Assembly: GCA_028565635.1 (NCBI GenBank)
Contig: JAOXYB010003679.1
Coordinates: 1-20,304, forward strand
Reading direction: 5' to 3'
Length of the DNA: 20,304 nt
Origin: Phoronis ovalis
Lineage: Eukaryota > Phoronida > Phoronidae
Shown here: positions 10,901 to 19,324 of the stretch, piece by piece
How the letters are laid out: every line of letters starts with the position of its first letter
Numbering within the stretch: the first letter of the stretch is position 1
The notes under the pieces: model-generated
What the model saw: the letters and a program-made list of their open reading frames with translations, nothing else
Told to the model about the DNA's origin: nothing
Database searches by the model: none
Program-made: the position numbers and the translations under genes

Positions 10901-13900
10901 AAATCACCATTACACTTCTCTATTGCAAACAACAAGCATTCAAAATCGGTCCACAAGTATAGTTGGGATCACACTGCTCATTTCAATGTGATCTCTTAGA
11001 TCATTGAATACAAGTGGTGATAATTATGACCACCTGTGAACTCGTTCTTTAAGGTATTTATGATGTGGGTAAATTCTGAATAGGAACCCCACACACATTC
11101 ATTGTACGAGGCAATGCTACATGTGAGGATACTTCATATTCTTACTTGGGGCTGCTATCGTCTATAGGGAACATTTAATGGGGATTTGAAAAACAAGAAA
11201 CTTTTCTAAAAAAAAACAAATAATTTTATCATTTATTTTTTTACTGTTTTTTTTTATTTATAAAAAAACAAAAACAAAACATCCGAACTTTGAAATACTG
11301 TTACGTACTATATCACTAACGCTGATAAAAAAATGTTTCAACTTTTTACACAGTAAAATGTAACAATTAAAGAAACATGCGAACTTCGGGGTGAGATGGG
11401 ATAGTGGAATATACCATAGTTAAATTTACATGGACTTACACACAGACTGGTTGAGCAAAATACTTTGTATTAAGACATTTTGTTAGATAGAATCAACCTT
11501 ATTTAATATATTACATTTAGTTTACACCATCTTTGACCTCTACTATAAAATACTATTACCTACTTTAAGCGTGTGATTGTGATATAACTGATTCAAGCAA
11601 TGTGTACATGTATATCACAATATTCTATATTCCAATGTTTAGATGAATATAATTTTGATACCACCTTAAGCATATTAACCTGCATAATAAAATCCTGCAT
11701 CAGCAAGTTGTTCTGGCCTTTGTCTCATAGTTGTTGGCCAGATTTCATAAGTGCCTAGTCTATGTTGTAACAAGGCATAGAATGGATTTTTAGGCCGGTC
11801 AGTGTTGATACCTAGTAGAGCAGCATTCTGTGGATTGCCTATATCAAGTTAGCATTAATTAATACAATTAAACAATGAATTCGACTATGTTTTACACACG
11901 CACATACGCATGCATACACACACACACACACGTCCACGCACGTACACCCTGACATCAGTACCCACTGGCACTAGATTACTGATTCTGATTTTAATACAAC
12001 TTGACGGCACCCGTGGTAATCCACAGATCTTAATAGAGATGTAGATCACGTAAGGCCGAGGTCAGACATGTTCATTTGACTCTAACAGGCAAATCATAAT
12101 GATGCAAGAGGTTAACAAATTCTCCATTAAATATGATAACCGTTGATTGATTGACCCCAAAATATGAGGAACTTGAGCCATCGTCAATGCCTACGAAATG
12201 TGAAAAGATCATAATTCTACATGTAATACTTTTGAAGATATTTGGTGGAAAGAGTGACAGAGTTACATAATTCGGACGAACATTCGAGATTTAGTAGTAT
12301 AGATTGTTTTTAACAAAAAATCTGGAAAACACATTTCAAACTAATCTGTTGTTTTCAAGAGGAAAACGTTCCAATGCTACTTGGTAAATGCGAAGAAATA
12401 AACAGCAGTTAAGATCATAGAATAAAACTGGAATGTACTTATACTACTTGTACAAAGCTTACGGGATCATCTCAAAAGTTATCACAATGACCACAAACGT
12501 ATAGTGTTTAATATAGGATTTAACCCCCACCCTCCCCTGGTCAAACGTAGGGGGGTTAGTGAGATTTTGCCCTATCCAGTTGCGCACCTAGGAGGTTCCG
12601 GGGGCAATATTTGGTGCTATTTCCTGCAATCTGGTGCATTCTGGAACTCTAATTTGCCATGACACACTGTGTCAATTTTTATAGAAAACACAAAGTTGAT
12701 TCATGAACAAATATGGATCGTGCATTATCTAGTTTAACTTTTTATTACAACATCGCCTGAACTTTAATAGTGTTATCAGAAAAAAAAGACATTTCCAAGG
12801 CAGATGCACTCCTGATAACAAGTTCTGAATCAATTAGAGTCACCGATAGCAACATAAATTCTTCCACTGTGTGTTATTCTGATATCAGCACGTTAAACAG
12901 ACTAGACGTCACGCACGTGTAAAATCTGACAACTAATTTCAAGAGCGAAATCATCGATAAATTCTATTTAAAACATATTTACCTCTACCTCTAAATATGA
13001 TAACCGTTGATCGATTGACCCCAAATTTGAGGAACCTGAGCCATCGTCAATACCTACGATGTGTGAAAAGATCATAATTCTACATGTAATAGTTTTGAAG
13101 ATATTTGGTGGAAAGAGTGACAGAGTTACAAAATTCGGATGAACACTCGAGATTTAGTAGTATAGATTGTGTTTTTAACAAAAAATCTGGAAAACAAATT
13201 TGAAACTAATCTGTTGTTTTCAAGAGGAAAACGTTCCAATGCTACTTGGTAAATGCGAAGAAATAAACAGCAGTTAAATCATAGAATAAAACTGGAATGT
13301 ACTTATACTACTTGTACAAAGCTTCAGGGATCATCTCAAAAGTTATCACAATGACCACAAACGTATAGCGTTTAATATAGGATTTACCCCCCCCCCCAAC
13401 CCTCCCGTGGTCAAACGTAGGGGGGTTAGTGAGATTTTTGCCCTATCCAGTTGACAACGTAGGAGGTTCCGGGGGCAATATTTGGTGCTATTTCCAGCAA
13501 TCTGGTGCATTCTGGAACTCTAATTTGCCATGACACACTGTGTCATTTTTTATAGAATACACAAAGTTGATTCATGAACAAATATGGATCATGCATTATC
13601 TAGTTTAACTTTTTATTACAACATCGCCTGAACTTTAATAGTGTTATCAGAAAAAAGACATTTCCAAGGCAGATGCTCTCCTGATAATAAGTTCTGAATC
13701 AATTAGAGTCACCGATAGCAACATAAATTTTTCCACTGTGTGTTATTCTGATTTCAGCACGTTAAACAGCCTAGACGTCACACACGTGTAAAATCTGACA
13801 ACTTATTTCAAGAGCGAAATCATCGATAAATTCTATTTAAAAAACATTTACCTCTACCGATAAAATTGTATGTTTTGACACAAAACTATTTACAAACGTC

Positions 13901-16078
13901 TGGTACCTGTTTAAAGGCTGACGTTTGTAAATTGCTCTGCTTTCCGGCGCTACAGTACCAAATAATGTCAGCTGTTTGAACATCTTTTGTGCATATCATC
14001 TGCACTGCAGTGACATAAATAGGTCATCCCGCTTTACGACTGTCGTATCTCTATGCTGTAAAGTTAAAACTGGACGGTACCCGGGGCATAGTTTATCCGT
14101 TTGATGCAGGTATTTCACTGTCCTTTCCCTTCCCCCAATTTCGTACATTTTTGCACACTTGTATGAATGTTCATGGAGTGGTAGAATAAATAGAACCTAA
14201 AACTTCTACATTTACTAAGGAATGCTTTTTAATAAATATCGTATATATGCTAGAGACTAGGCTTGATTTTTTCATTTCGCACTAACCCATAAACGTAGGT
14301 GGATTTTAGCCCCTGCCCCCCTATATTAAATGCTATACGTTTGGGGTCATTGTGATAACTTTTGAGATGATCCTTAATGCAGTACACTAAACACTCACTA
14401 AGAATATCAGCTCCTGTGCTAATAGTGACTGTTACAGGTTCAGAACTGTCTGTAGGTAGTTCAGATCCTAAAGGAATATTTCCTACATCTTCAGCTCGGA
14501 CGAACCCGCAGTCCGGGAAATAATGACGGTGTTCAATGTCAACTCTGTCACCAGGTTCCCAGTGACGTAGAATTCCACGACAGAAAGCACACTGGACTCG
14601 GTCATCCACGCCAGTGTAGTAGAAACCATTGCAAGATAATTCATCAGGGAAAACAGGGGCTGATGCCGGCCAACCTTATAATAACAACACATCATATATC
14701 TGATAATTGTGATACATAATTGCAGTAGGAGAAAAACTTTTAGTATTTAAAAGTACAGCAAACAGAATTATGAATGTATAATTGTAAATCTTTTGAAGCT
14801 AGAATTAACTTTACTTTCGAAACCCCTATCATGTTTAAGTTCATCAAATCGCAGTATCACTTTTATAATAAACATGTATCTAGGCAAGAAGTAATCAATT
14901 TCCAGTAAACAACTTAATGCATTTGAACAATAATCTGTAATGCGCATAACTATGCTACTAGTATCTTAATTAGCAATTGTTAATAACCACTAACAAGATG
15001 TTCATATTTTTTTTATTTCACTACGATTACCTGTATATGTTTGCAGTCTGTTTCTTCCTATTTTCATTCTCAATTCTTCTACTCTCAATGGATCATCTTC
15101 ATCTCTTATACTTGTATTCCCTGTGTTTCTAGCCAAATCATTGTAATAGTTGTGGGGATTGCTACCTGACCTGGCATCTGATGGAGGAACATCACAATCA
15201 TTTCTATCCACGGATTGGTTGGAACTTCCACCGAGAGGGATATTAGATGTATCACGTACATTCATGAAATTGCAATTAGGAAATGTTTGTCGATGTCGAA
15301 CATTTGGTTCATCACCATAATGCCAGCTTCTCAATCTACCACCACATGAAAAGCATAACACTTCATCACCATGTCCAGTAAATGAAAAGCCAGATTTGGC
15401 AAGTTTTAAAGTTGACACAGCTGCCCATCTTGGAAATTTCTGGAAAGATTCTAATCGGACAACTTCACAGCAAAATTCTTCACCAGGTCTCAATGGTGGT
15501 CCAATAGCCATGCGAACCAGGATATCAGTCAAAACAGGGTACACAAAAATTTCACAATTTCGTTGCAAATCAGTAATTTTTTCAACTCTGTAGAAATAAT
15601 TAGGAAGAATGAAACTTTTCCCAGAATATTCTGCACAAGTACAATTTGTCAAACATATTTCCAAGCAAAACTTTAAAAACTGTCTATCAACAGACAGTTG
15701 CACAGAGTTGCTGTCAAAGGCTTCATGCGAAGGTTGAAACTTTCGTACTCTTAAATTAAACATCTTTGGTTTGTTGGTTGTTAAGTGCAGATTACTGCTG
15801 ATTGTAATCTTTGATTTGCCACCAAGCAAATGTTCTTCAGTTTGACAAGCCACGCTCTTGCAATTCGCAGAATCAAACCCGAAAGAAATAGAAACTGCTT
15901 CACCAGAATTGACCTTTGACCTTCTATTTTCTAGTGTAAGAGGTCTTGTGGTAATACACAATTGGGCAGCAGGAGTACATGTTCTGTCATTTTTCTTGCC
16001 AGTATGTTCTACTGATTTTGTGTTTACATATTCATTACAATCTTCTGCATTATTCCCTGATGTGTCTGTCTTTGCCAT
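7770..16078 (-). CDS. Inhibitor of apoptosis protein, 3xBIR-UBA-RING (spliced, 8 coding exons, 753 aa)
   Basis: This gene encodes a predicted RING E3 ubiquitin ligase of the IAP family, acting in the cytosol on caspases and on receptor or NF-kB signalling complexes (family knowledge). Coding joins are 16078-15031, 14674-14399, 11838-11680, 10637-10462, 10083-10020, 9502-9341, 9018-8839 and 7966-7770, giving 2262 nt, exactly 754 codons. Introns are all GT-AG, with phases 1,1,1,0,1,1,1. The domains are BIR1 (about residues 206-275), BIR2 (about 339-410), BIR3 (about 466-533), UBA (about 595-646) and RING (706-740, ending in TVKTYMS). No CARD is present between UBA and RING, so the layout is XIAP-like, with a BIRC2/3-like BIR count. 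Residues 1-200 match nothing I recognise. The start at 16078 has A at -3 and G at +4, but an acceptor lies 11 nt upstream, so at least one upstream exon exists. An exact orthologue cannot be assigned because bivalves carry many IAP paralogues. Confidence 0.93.
7967..8838 (-). other. IAP intron 7 (phase 1)
   Basis: An 872-bp AT-rich intron between the UBA/linker exon and the RING exon. No CARD-coding exon, repeat or RNA element was found in a three-frame reading of the minus strand. Confidence 0.8.
8839..9018 (-). CDS. IAP coding exon 7: end of UBA and charged linker
   Basis: The acceptor TTTAACAG|GG gives [18 protein letters not shown]. This is the last UBA helix, and IAPs of vertebrates have a closely similar F-P/S-x-A-x-x-L-L-x-A-I pattern here. 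A low-complexity Thr/Lys/Glu linker follows (about residues 650-690), in the place where BIRC2/3 carry a CARD. No CARD is visible. The donor ACGG|GTTTGT at 8839/8838 is weaker than the others but gives the right phase (1) to reach the RING exon. Confidence 0.9.
9019..9340 (-). other. IAP intron 6 (phase 1)
   Basis: A 322-bp intron inside the UBA-coding region. It contains an AT palindromic stretch (around 9085-9108, runs of ttttaatttaattt and aattaaaa). No other element was seen. Confidence 0.85.
9341..9502 (-). CDS. IAP coding exon 6: first part of UBA
   Basis: The acceptor CTGAACAG|AG starts [23 protein letters not shown] domain then begins near residue 595, with [19 protein letters not shown]. 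The M610-G611-Y612 loop is the family's ubiquitin-contacting MGF/MGY motif. IAP UBA domains bind mono- and polyubiquitin chains and are needed for NF-kB signalling (family knowledge). The donor AAAG|GTATAC splits a Gly codon (phase 1). The UBA is completed in the next exon. Confidence 0.92.
9503..10019 (-). other. IAP intron 5 (phase 1), hosts a small inverted-repeat element
   Basis: A 517-bp intron. About half of it is the TTAA-flanked element at 9646-9890. The rest is plain AT-rich sequence. Confidence 0.85.
9646..9890. mobile_element. Small non-autonomous element with TTAA flanks inside IAP intron 5
   Basis: TTAA at 9646-9649 and at 9887-9890 flank inverted ends: GTTAGTTCCCTTTTCCCTTG at the left and GAATAGGGAAAAAGGAAAGG...AACAAAC at the right, which reverse-complements to GTTTGTTCCCCTTTCC. 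Inside, a ~38-bp word (CTTTCTTGAAACCCTCAATC...) occurs twice, 69 bp apart (9714 and 9783). TTAA target duplications are characteristic of piggyBac-type transposition, but the superfamily is not proven by the ends. Confidence 0.6.
10020..10083 (-). CDS. IAP coding exon 5: short Gly/Glu-rich linker
   Basis: This 64-nt micro-exon lies between acceptor TTTACAG|GAG (phase 0) and donor CCAG|GTAGGA (phase 1). It encodes [20 protein letters not shown] plus P and a split Gly/Glu codon. It has no domain and links BIR3 to the UBA. The call rests on exact phase compatibility with exons 4 and 6 and on both splice signals. A shorter alternative isoform that skips it would shift the frame, because 64 is not a multiple of three and its flanking introns differ in phase. 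Confidence 0.85.
10084..10461 (-). other. IAP intron 4 (phase 0)
   Basis: A 378-bp intron, the only phase-0 intron of the gene. It contains the CTCF-like motif at 10210-10224 and nothing else recognised. Confidence 0.85.
10210..10224 (+). promoter_or_regulatory. CTCF-like motif in IAP intron 4
   Basis: TCACTAGGTGTCGCT fits the conserved animal CTCF core CCASYAGRKGGCRSY at 13 of 15 positions. Motif match only. Confidence 0.3.
10462..10637 (-). CDS. IAP coding exon 4: zinc-binding half of BIR3
   Basis: The acceptor CATTGCAG|GA restores Gly 495 and continues [19 protein letters not shown]. Zinc ligands are C502, C505, H522 and C529. The stretch [15 protein letters not shown] keeps the features of an XIAP BIR3-type peptide groove: a Trp after GLRN (W512), an acidic residue (D516), Glu before the zinc His (E521) and a Trp three residues after it (W525). 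From family knowledge this groove binds N-terminal AVPI/ATPF-type motifs of SMAC-like proteins and caspase-9, so BIR3 is the likely caspase or antagonist docking domain (inference). A helical tail [17 protein letters not shown] ends at a strong donor, CCT|GTAAGT, phase 0. Confidence 0.94.
10638..11679 (-). other. IAP intron 3 (phase 1)
   Basis: A 1042-bp intron that splits BIR3. It is AT-rich with A and T homopolymer stretches at 11205-11280. No exon, RNA gene or recognisable repeat was seen. Confidence 0.85.
11680..11838 (-). CDS. IAP coding exon 3: linker and first half of BIR3
   Basis: The acceptor GATATAG|GC joins exon 2 in phase 1 and makes a Ser codon. The 52 full codons read [13 protein letters not shown], then [15 protein letters not shown], then [10 protein letters not shown]. 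This is the BIR N-terminal helix region and the first strand. The exon stops just before the zinc-binding half of the domain, at donor GCAG|GTTAAT (phase 1). It is too short to stand out as an open frame by itself. It was found by translating the gap between the BIR2 exon and the zinc-ligand exon. Confidence 0.93.
11894..11949 (+). repeat. CA-rich microsatellite in IAP intron 2
   Basis: An interrupted (CA)n tract with CG and TG interruptions. Confidence 0.9.
12129..12992 (+). repeat. 864-bp tandem duplication, copy 1 (IAP intron 2)
   Basis: Begins AAATATGATAACCGTTGATT and is followed immediately by a second, nearly identical copy. Shared landmarks include the C/G-rich hinge near 12523-12556, the phrase ATTTGGTGCTATTTCC, and a TAGACGTCACGCACGTG word near 12902-12918 (CRE half site plus E-box). 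Part of it (12606-12695) resembles the dispersed element at 19899-19986, so the duplicated unit contains transposon-derived sequence. Confidence 0.92.
12993..13857 (+). repeat. 864-bp tandem duplication, copy 2 (IAP intron 2)
   Basis: A head-to-tail copy of 12129-12992 with scattered substitutions and small indels; for example the poly-C hinge is longer here (13387-13397). Divergence is low across the whole length, pointing to a fairly recent unequal exchange or slippage event. Confidence 0.92.
13888..13932. repeat. Perfect 13-bp inverted repeat
   Basis: ATTTACAAACGTC (13888-13900) and GACGTTTGTAAAT (13920-13932) are exact reverse complements with a 19-bp spacer. The element lies just outside the tandem duplication and has no recognised role. 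Confidence 0.85.
14281..14373 (-). repeat. Inverted fragment of the intron 2 repeat next to the exon 2 donor
   Basis: The reverse complement matches 12464-12560 of copy 1 (GGATCATCTCAAAAGTTATC, then ACAATGACC, then the ACGTAGG...GGGTTAGT end) with a few changes and a gap in the C-rich hinge. It starts 25 bp inside intron 2 from the donor of exon 2. Confidence 0.85.
14399..14674 (-). CDS. IAP coding exon 2: BIR2
   Basis: The acceptor TATAAG|GT starts the exon by completing a Gly codon, so that exon 1 RLQTYT runs straight into GWPAS, a textbook BIR entry. The core reads [16 protein letters not shown] then [11 protein letters not shown]. Zinc ligands are C378, C381, H398 and C405 with standard spacing, and E397 precedes the histidine. 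After the domain comes [14 protein letters not shown], which echoes the NIPLGGSS that follows BIR1. The donor CTTA|GTGAGT lies at 14399/14398, phase 1. The frame stays open past the donor to a stop at 14250, so intron retention would give a protein ending after BIR2, without BIR3, UBA and RING. Confidence 0.92.
14675..15030 (-). other. IAP intron 1 (phase 1)
   Basis: A 356-bp GT-AG intron between BIR1 and BIR2. It is AT-rich, and no repeat or RNA element was recognised in it. Confidence 0.85.
15031..16078 (-). CDS. IAP coding exon 1: N-terminal region and BIR1
   Basis: This exon holds residues 1-349 plus the first base of codon 350. Residues 1-200 are polar and unassigned, with clustered cysteines at 138, 142, 146 and 148 (and 73, 78). 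BIR1 follows: RLESF at about 208, the core [11 protein letters not shown], zinc ligands C242, C245, H262 and C269 with canonical C-x2-C-x16-H-x6-C spacing, and W252. The residue before the zinc histidine is Arg rather than Glu or Gln, and no Trp follows it. This fits a type I BIR that does not bind IAP-binding motifs and may bind adaptor proteins, as BIR1 of cIAPs does with TRAF2 (inference). The donor is ACAG|GTAATC at 15031/15030, phase 1. If this donor is skipped the frame stops at 15002 after nine more codons. Confidence 0.93.
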
Positions 16079-17640: not shown

Positions 17641-17945
17641 ATGTGCGCATATGTGTAACCATCCTTTATACAAATGACTTCCCGGGCGCACACCTTAACC
17701 AGAAATTTGTAAAGTACTCCCTTCTGGGTTTCCCCCTAAAACTGTACTGTCCTCTTGTGTGAATGAAAATCCTTAAATGGGCCTACTGGCATTGTGCAGG
17801 AGTCAACTGAAATCCCAGCCCCTGGGAATAGCGGGGCATGTAACAATTTCGAATCCCTGGTGTTAGCCCCGTTAATGGGGCCTTGTGGTGGCATACATGT
17901 CCGTAGTCCGGAAGGCAAACTGTAAGCCCTGCCCTGGTGGTGGAT
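17641..17945. repeat. GC-rich island, possible dispersed repeat
   Basis: The composition is unlike the flanks. It contains a GCCCC/GGGGC hairpin (17866-17881), and on the minus strand a B-box-like GGGATTCGAAATT (17847-17859). No convincing A box was found at the right spacing, so a SINE call is not justified. Confidence 0.3.
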
Positions 17946-18374
17946 TAAACCTAGGTGGTATGAATAGGTGAATAGCTTTTGAACATGAGATCTTTAGCAT
18001 AATTCTAGAAAAATAAGTAAATAATGTCCTTTAAAATTATGCACCTTTTCTATCATTGGCCCTGTGATTTCAAATCTGTGTCAAAGGGCTGTCTCGAGAA
18101 GTTGATACATAGTTCACTGGTACCTGGGTATTAAAAAATATTAACAACAAGTTTTCAAATCACCAGTTTGTGATTTCATTAAATATATGCAGCTGCCAGG
18201 CAGGAAAATAAGGTAACCTATATGAATCTTCCCCAATAACATGGCCCCGCCATATCACGTTGTACATATTAAACAGCTACATGCAGTAAACCCCGGTTTA
18301 TGCCTGTAATAAAAGCCTATAGGGACTGAAGACCGACGGTGAAAGAATAAAATAATCTTGTATAGTAGTACAAT
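17946..18374. other. Upstream flank of the hammerhead ribozyme
   Basis: No gene was found. It contains a small palindrome, AAACCCCGGTTT (18288-18299), and a ribozyme-like but defective word at 18322-18342. This stretch may belong to the element that carries the ribozyme, but no element ends were recognised. Confidence 0.3.
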
Positions 18375-18439
18375 GTCTAATCCCTAACTGATGAGATCAG
18401 AAGATTGAAACAGCTAGTTGTATTAGGGTATTGCTAGAC
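18375..18439 (+). ncRNA. Type I hammerhead self-cleaving ribozyme
   Basis: All hammerhead core positions are present. CTGATGA lies at 18388-18394. Stem II is GATC/GATT (18395-18398 with 18403-18406, one G-U pair) with loop AGAA. GAAA lies at 18407-18410. Stem III is ACAG/TTGT (18410-18413 with 18418-18421) with a 4-nt loop, and the cleavage triplet GTA (18420-18422) puts the cut after 18422. Stem I closes the fold: CCCTAA (18382-18387) pairs perfectly with TTAGGG (18423-18428). Beyond an internal loop, GTCTA (18375-18379) pairs with TAGAC (18435-18439). Short stem III type I ribozymes are known from animal retrozymes and Penelope-like elements, including bivalves, so this is probably part of such an element. 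No second copy was found in the window. Confidence 0.82.
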
Positions 18440-18779
18440 CACCCACCCCGCTACAAAATAGACCATTCCTCATAACACAACCAATTTTATCTACCGTACT
18501 GTATAACTACATATGATTTAAGCAACAGAACTGATCTGAACTGCCTGAATCAACAGAATCCCAGATCTCAGACATTCAGTCACACATACTGTATACCTAG
18601 AGACCTCTCATACTTGAGATGACTCGTCAGCACAGGATTCGCATGCTGATAAGATTTGTAACATCCTAGATCAAATACTTCACGCATTACGACGTCGTAA
18701 TACAGTATTGTGAATCACAGATTGAGATATGACTGACTCTTATAAATATACTCATGGGTTAATCAAAAACAAATTTCAG

Positions 18780-19002
18780 TTATTATCAATGGATGAGAGT
18801 GAAAGAACTAGAGGACACCCTTTCAAGCTTAAAACTAGATACTGTAGGACTGCAAAACATCAGAATTTCTTCTCATTTAGACTGGTTGAATCATGAAATT
18901 CGTTACCTAAAAGTGTGTGCCACATCAATCAATAGTTTTAAAAACAATCCAGACAAAGTATGGAAAGAACATTTTTACAAACCCGATGTGCAATACCCGT
19001 GA
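18780..19002 (+). CDS. Candidate terminal exon of an unidentified plus-strand gene
   Basis: An open frame follows an acceptor-like AAATTTCAG|T (18777-18779) and runs YYQWMRVKELEDTLSSLKLD to a TGA at 19000-19002. About 73 codons are open. The residue mix is coding-like: an amphipathic stretch rich in Leu, Lys and Glu, then HLDWLNHEIRYLKVC, and a C-terminus NPDKVWKEHFYKPDVQYP. If the acceptor is real the exon begins in phase 2. As a stand-alone small ORF it would start at ATG 18793. I do not recognise the family. No AATAAA follows until 20084, and the polypyrimidine tract is poor, so it may be a pseudogene or transposon fragment. Confidence 0.4.
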
Positions 19003-19071
19003 ATGACTATGATTTGTTAGAAAGTCGAAATCAGCTTACAAGCTTTCTAGCTTAAGATTACAGCTGAAGAG

Positions 19072-19094
19072 GATGTATGCATGTATGTATGTAC
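19072..19094 (+). repeat. ATGT microsatellite
   Basis: Short (ATGT)n run with one GC interruption. Confidence 0.8.
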
Positions 19095-19324
19095 AGATTG
19101 GAAGGCTATTTGGTAATGAGCACTGCAAACCTCTATCTATTAGCAAGATTAAGTACTGTTAGCAGAAAACACAGATGAAAGAATTAGGCTATTCATAATT
19201 CCACAAGCATGATGCTACTACGGACAGCCAATGGCTTGCCATAGGGTCATGACAGCCTCGCATCTCAGACCAGCTGAAGGTCGAAAATATATGCTCGCTG
19301 CTCGCAAAACCACCCTTATAGCCC

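Follow-up and report, generated by a model that had tools for sequence, protein, structure and literature searches.

A type I hammerhead ribozyme in Phoronis ovalis as the probable relic of a dispersed, non-coding retroelement

Introduction

Type I hammerhead ribozymes lie within interspersed repeats of Aedes, Nematostella and Xenopus, several of them with a self-complementary stem III and with a dimeric form described in the accessible text (PMC3088659), and the SMalpha element of Schistosoma, as the available part of its description has it, is a SINE-like, dispersed non-coding repeat that carries a hammerhead of the same type (PMC8490949). Animal non-LTR retrozymes are, in the accessible portion of their report, tandem repeats that are widespread and occur in a mollusc among other animals (PMC7229834), and the hammerheads of Penelope-like elements are presented in the available excerpts as minimal forms that do without helix III or loop contacts (PMC6155905, PMC7761336). 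What a ribozyme does when it stands alone is less well understood than its part in the tandem arrays that make circles.

Here we describe a hammerhead from the phoronid Phoronis ovalis (assembly GCA_028565635.1, contig JAOXYB010003679.1), found in a stretch of 20,304 nucleotides that we analysed as a whole and call the window. We estimate a probability of roughly 0.78 that it is by ancestry a genuine hammerhead of type I, the diverged remnant of a retrotransposon-like element that is dispersed and non-coding. As such repeats are on record for several animals and for SMalpha, we place it among the known dispersed type I hammerheads: its relatives share with the repeats of Aedes, Nematostella and Xenopus and with SMalpha, so far as the accessible descriptions go, a type I ribozyme in dispersed non-coding repeats, whereas the element has a sequence and length of its own, the comparison being one of description and not of sequence (PMC3088659, PMC8490949). 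The dispersed non-coding repeat with a type I hammerhead that marks SMalpha-type elements is found on other contigs, and the window shares with it the ribozyme and about 50 bases only. Nothing known is overturned; the animal set gains a dispersed hammerhead element that was not seen in tandem, and a hammerhead far under the Rfam threshold can be genuine and recognisable through its genomic relatives.

Results

The hammerhead occupies positions 18375-18439 of the window on the forward strand, as read from the bases and as matched by a family covariance model (R2, below), and all core nucleotides of the complete type I motif that the original prediction described can be read there directly. Stem I is in two parts, an outer helix of 5 bp in which GTCTA at 18375-18379 pairs with TAGAC at 18435-18439 and an inner helix of 6 bp in which CCCTAA at 18382-18387 pairs with TTAGGG at 18423-18428, separated by an asymmetric internal loop (AT at 18380-18381 facing TATTGC at 18429-18434). 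The core segment CTGATGA (18388-18394) leads into stem II (18395-18406), where GATC at 18395-18398 and GATT at 18403-18406 form 4 bp around the loop AGAA with one G.U pair at the base, and the core segment GAAA (18407-18410) leads into stem III (18410-18421), whose strands 18410-18413 and 18418-18421 form 4 bp around the loop CTAG. The GTA triplet lies at 18420-18422, and hammerhead chemistry predicts a cut after 18422. The lengths and loops of stems I, II and III stand as first described, except that a G.U pair in stem III (18413-18418) had gone unmentioned. Written as RNA, the motif has the CUGANGA and GAAA core segments and a UH preceding stem I, which mark type I, and the three-stem layout, open at stem I, is retained across the related copies, both in a six-copy alignment and in the R2 match. 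In the window all 12 bases of the stem III region are self-complementary (G.U allowed), as are 10 of 11 in the copy on contig C4425.

Relatives of this ribozyme are present in the same assembly. The core pattern CTGATGAN{8,24}GAAACN{6,12}GTH, run over all 77.4 Mb, gave 108 matches against 51 for the reversed pattern, and two of six places picked by eye among the matches listed, on contigs C1042 and C4425, hold what is clearly the window's ribozyme. Core-pattern matches at C1608, C3100, C3426 and C1162 were considered as family members but rejected, as the family models fail to match them. A DNA search with the C4425 copy led to further copies, among which C1301, C2711 and C2647 carry the ribozyme, so that homologous hammerheads besides that of the window number at least five (C4425, C1042, C1301, C2711 and C2647). 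The related genomic copies for which the original prediction had called thus exist, as type I hammerheads inside a dispersed repeat. Searching with TCTAATYCCTARCTGATGAG at up to three mismatches gave 30 matches against 8 in a control, with the window, C1042, C2647 and C4425 matching at zero or one mismatch and C2585 at two. Nine near-identical TGTAATTCCTACCTAATGAG matches in that search (C1543, C2811, C3102, C3103, C3971, C4785, C1055, C3253 and C3168) may belong to a repeat of other origin or to a relative whose core is dead. On contig C363 the ribozyme region stops after its left part, at CCTAG, next to the same terminal sequence as C2711, and AATTCCTAG is present on both sides (at the L097 start and the L093 end), so that C363 and C2711 probably represent one ribozyme copy split by a transposon. 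The transposon, with inverted ends, has apparently inserted with a 9-base duplication, AATTCCTAG, and the assembly breaks there.

Common descent was assessed with a model and an alignment. The covariance model R2, built from the five other copies alone (alignment A2), finds the window at 18373-18441 with 50.2 bits and an E-value of 3.5e-10, E-values of such models being rough, and yields no second match in the 20.3-kb window up to an E-value of 10. When all six sequences are aligned, 91.2% of 114 cells are paired, and pairing falls to 16.1-37.2% once the partner strands are slid; stem II is paired in 100% of cells and outer stem I, the weakest helix, in 76.7%. Both sides have changed in 4 of 19 helix pairs (two of the six inner stem I pairs and two of the four in stem II), a number attained by 8 of 500 shuffles and to be counted as one deep branch, because all four changes separate the window row from the other five; 76 of 500 shuffles have at least as many further pair types. 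Outside the core, the window is identical to C4425 at 37 of 54 aligned positions, to C1042 at 38 of 54 and to C2647 at 40 of 54. Among core-keeping shuffles, 0 of 2000 attain the score with C4425 and 0 of 2000 that with C1042, the two copies for which this was tested, whereas 120 of 2000 attain the window's likeness to the consensus of the Rfam family Hammerhead_HH9 (RF02275). On these tests the descent of the window and the other copies from one ribozyme is well supported, and a special tie between the window and HH9 is not. The core is intact in three of the six copies (the window, C4425 and C1042, the last with its first stem I pair mismatched) and broken in C1301, C2711 and C2647.

Rfam by itself is insufficient to establish the window hammerhead. 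The covariance score that had been looked to for support reaches 19.4 bits in the best match, to HH9, where the gathering cut-off is 52, with an E-value of 1.4 when the whole Rfam library is run over the window and 0.014 over 201 bases; related copies nonetheless exist. In the whole assembly, RF00163 and RF02275 gave no hammerhead above cut-off, with 73 of 6329 and 58 of 3639 first-look candidates, respectively, scored. C4425 scores 35.0 bits and C1042 22.7 bits against HH9, both again under 52, and the three other copies match no hammerhead family. The family resembles HH9 in a stem I divided into outer and inner helices by an internal loop and in a 4-bp stem II, and differs from it in that even the best copy, at 35.0 bits, and the window, at 19.4, stay below the cut-off and in that the window has no special likeness to it outside the core.

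The rarity of the motif was gauged in 1.2 billion single-strand bases from an order-3 Markov model trained on the window and seven loci. One motif appeared there with CTGATGA, GAAA and UH, a stem I of at least 6 bp, a stem II of at least 4 and a stem III of at least 3, and none appeared once a stem III of at least 4 bp was also required, which corresponds to about 3e-5 such motifs per window (both strands) and 0.13 per 77-Mb genome. Such a motif is rare for one window, but in a scan of the whole genome a single hammerhead motif without relatives would be only suggestive; the question of chance is settled by the existence of homologous copies and not by rarity alone. With these relatives, the sequence evidence confirms the window hammerhead as real and makes a chance fold very unlikely. 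Fold stability was dropped as evidence, the stretch 18374-18440 having a z-score of -0.78 and 46 of 200 shuffles folding equally well. ViennaRNA, whose model leaves out the hammerhead core and loop-loop contacts, favours a rival fold in which the core CUG pairs with the stem III CAG (-13.2 against -9.0 kcal/mol for the hammerhead fold), a result that is a warning rather than a disproof.

The other five ribozymes sit in a common non-coding repeat of roughly 500-630 bp, which we measured against a stretch of C4425 (L086) whose predicted cut falls after position 2616; this copy has 41% GC over 635 bases. Alignment to C4425 reaches upstream for about 131 bases in C1042, 230 in C1301 and 279 in C2647, and downstream for about 280-290 bases. 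Several copies of the repeat are without its 5' part, and partial copies without the ribozyme, at C375, C1255 and C2647:9356, start at different points inside the repeat. Matches of C1042, C1301, C2711 and C1255 terminate within L086 2894-2909, and those of C375 and both C2647 copies extend to the edge of the sequence compared. In C1042 a 189-base arm is repeated upstream in inverted order at 92%, and in C2647 the 3' arm occurs twice on the same strand, with about 3 kb separating the two. The C4425 copy appears, from the usual ends of such enzymes, to interrupt a non-LTR reverse transcriptase gene; Pfam searches with the gene pieces submitted left that enzyme unconfirmed, and ATCGAT at this copy is a candidate duplication only. 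We could establish neither a poly-A tail nor a confirmed target-site duplication nor a partner enzyme for the element. Elements of the SMalpha type have a polymerase III (tRNA-like) promoter, and ARAGORN detected no tRNA in ten loci.

The window's likeness to this element is restricted to 18375-18490, that is, the ribozyme and about 50 bases: an nhmmer profile of eight other loci matches that interval with an E-value of 1.5e-9, the score coming mostly from the ribozyme, and 18440-18490 on the forward strand is the weakly similar part downstream. On either side lie dispersed repeats of other kinds. The upstream one (17795-18274) has 25 genome matches including itself and appears unrelated to the hammerhead element; those of its copies that were searched hold no hammerhead. 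The downstream one begins at about 18434 (18434-18724 and 19095-19140), so that the 3' strand of outer stem I also supplies its first bases in common with relatives at C1719, C2543, C2414 and C4297, and it encloses an insert repeat of about 370 bases (18724-19096; 18 matches including itself), which has CAGATTG on both sides. A second family model, R1, was run over 53 loci (16 of 24 upstream-repeat loci, 15 of 17 insert loci and all four downstream-repeat loci, the others being second pieces on included contigs) and gave five matches, all of them already-known copies. As none fell in the neighbouring repeats, the ribozyme is not a common part of them, though it adjoins one.

The four downstream-repeat loci are without a ribozyme, and a profile of the downstream repeat did not match the hammerhead family; given this negative search, we do not claim the two as one element, despite some likeness by eye. 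In C1719 and C2543 an inverted partial copy of the downstream repeat stands immediately upstream, and by eye GGACTAAC and GTTAGACC occur at about the position of the window's outer stem I, which is perhaps the ribozyme site without its core. In C2414 (L003 3456-3790) the repeat copy begins at an apparent exon-intron border of what we take by eye to be a glycerol-kinase-like gene, as if the element had supplied the start of the intron.

Discussion

Our findings suggest that the window ribozyme is most likely the relic of a hammerhead-bearing, non-autonomous retroelement, because its relatives are embedded in a non-coding repeat that is dispersed and of which some copies are 5'-truncated. RNA transcribed through the element would cut itself after GUA or GUC. 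By established hammerhead chemistry the upstream fragment would then end in a 2',3'-cyclic phosphate and the downstream fragment begin with a 5'-OH; after such processing, or after re-ligation, the RNA could serve another element's reverse transcriptase as the template for DNA copies, and the self-complementary stem III would permit two ribozymes to work as a dimer. As its core is intact, the window copy may still cut, and nothing points to its transcription or use by the host. The natural reading of this copy is of an old relic in repeat-rich intergenic DNA.

Within this account, it is possible, if rather unlikely, that the copies represent an unnamed lineage of elements, about 500-630 bp long, whose RNA is processed or joined by one ribozyme that is not part of a tandem array, with 5'-truncated copies, sometimes an inverted duplicate of the 3' arm, and a ribozyme structure that outlives nearly all other sequence. 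Such a lineage would be a form between the SINE-like hammerhead elements and the retrozymes that make circles.

The original prediction had linked the ribozyme to animal retrozymes and Penelope-like elements, and neither attribution fares well. A classical animal retrozyme would consist of head-to-tail units of 170-400 nt with one hammerhead each, the monomers closed into abundant small circles, and the window would hold a leftover unit. Ribozyme type and architecture agree with this, as does the low GC of the element, and animal retrozymes are described as widespread; the likeness, judged on the accessible part of the source, is that both are non-coding repeats of low GC carrying a canonical type I hammerhead (PMC7229834). 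However, the repeat shared here, at about 500-630 bp, exceeds the unit length given there, and it was not seen in tandem: a single hammerhead is found in the 20.3-kb window, and the family models find only one in the 5.0 kb surrounding the C4425 copy and one in the 3.4 kb surrounding the C1042 copy, the C1301, C2711 and C2647 copies having been examined over 447-751 bases only. We consider this origin improbable.

A Penelope-like element with the ribozyme in its pseudo-terminal repeats would account for the two C2647 3'-arm copies, which lie as terminal repeats might, and perhaps for the inverted arm of C1042, and a minimal-hammerhead pattern occurs more often in the genome than in a control (8 matches against 2). 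Both ribozymes are of type I, and a self-complementary stem III region would allow dimers in each, but the Penelope-type hammerheads described in the available excerpts lack helix III or loop contacts, whereas the one described here has a 4-bp stem III and a long, two-part stem I (PMC6155905, PMC7761336). Against this origin stand also 1.6 kb of the interval between the C2647 copies, where three reading frames searched with Pfam gave no recognisable reverse transcriptase, and the GIY-YIG matches, three in the genome and near the Pfam cut-off, which fall on other contigs and never on the hammerhead contigs, these being short. A Penelope origin for the window ribozyme is thus quite improbable, and the excess of the minimal pattern suggests that minimal Penelope-type elements may occur elsewhere in the genome. 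Four of its eight matches read CTGATGA...AAGGCCGAAACGTT (C1608/L088, C1591, C2560 and C2648) and are possible Penelope-type ribozymes; no convincing stem I was seen at L088.

Host functions have been proposed for hammerheads in amniote introns. That the window hammerhead was likewise retained for the host is a reading to which its intact core, despite much divergence, and the standing of HH9 as the best Rfam relative of the family (C4425, E-value 1.4e-7) lend something, but HH9 matches only two of the five other copies (E-values up to 5), both under its cut-off, the window's likeness to it past the core is within reach of shuffled sequence (120 of 2000, as above), and the ribozyme lies between dispersed repeats, with the nearest recognisable gene on the other strand; we regard such retention as highly improbable. 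An accidental motif, unrelated to the ribozyme of the other contigs, would fit the sub-threshold Rfam score, the expectation of 0.13 such motifs per 77 Mb and flanks mostly unrelated to those of the other copies, but it is strongly disfavoured and scarcely credible beside a match from a model built without the window and a non-core likeness that no shuffle attained in either test.

Elsewhere in the window, the minus strand carries BIR-domain (inhibitor of apoptosis) reading frames at 14250-14609 and 15002-16078, and a protein database search with the BIR reading frame returned no close relative. About 870 bases are duplicated in tandem at 12128-13864, the copies being 94% alike, and positions 1179-2433 hold about four tandem units of 360-380 bases that are 62-93% alike.
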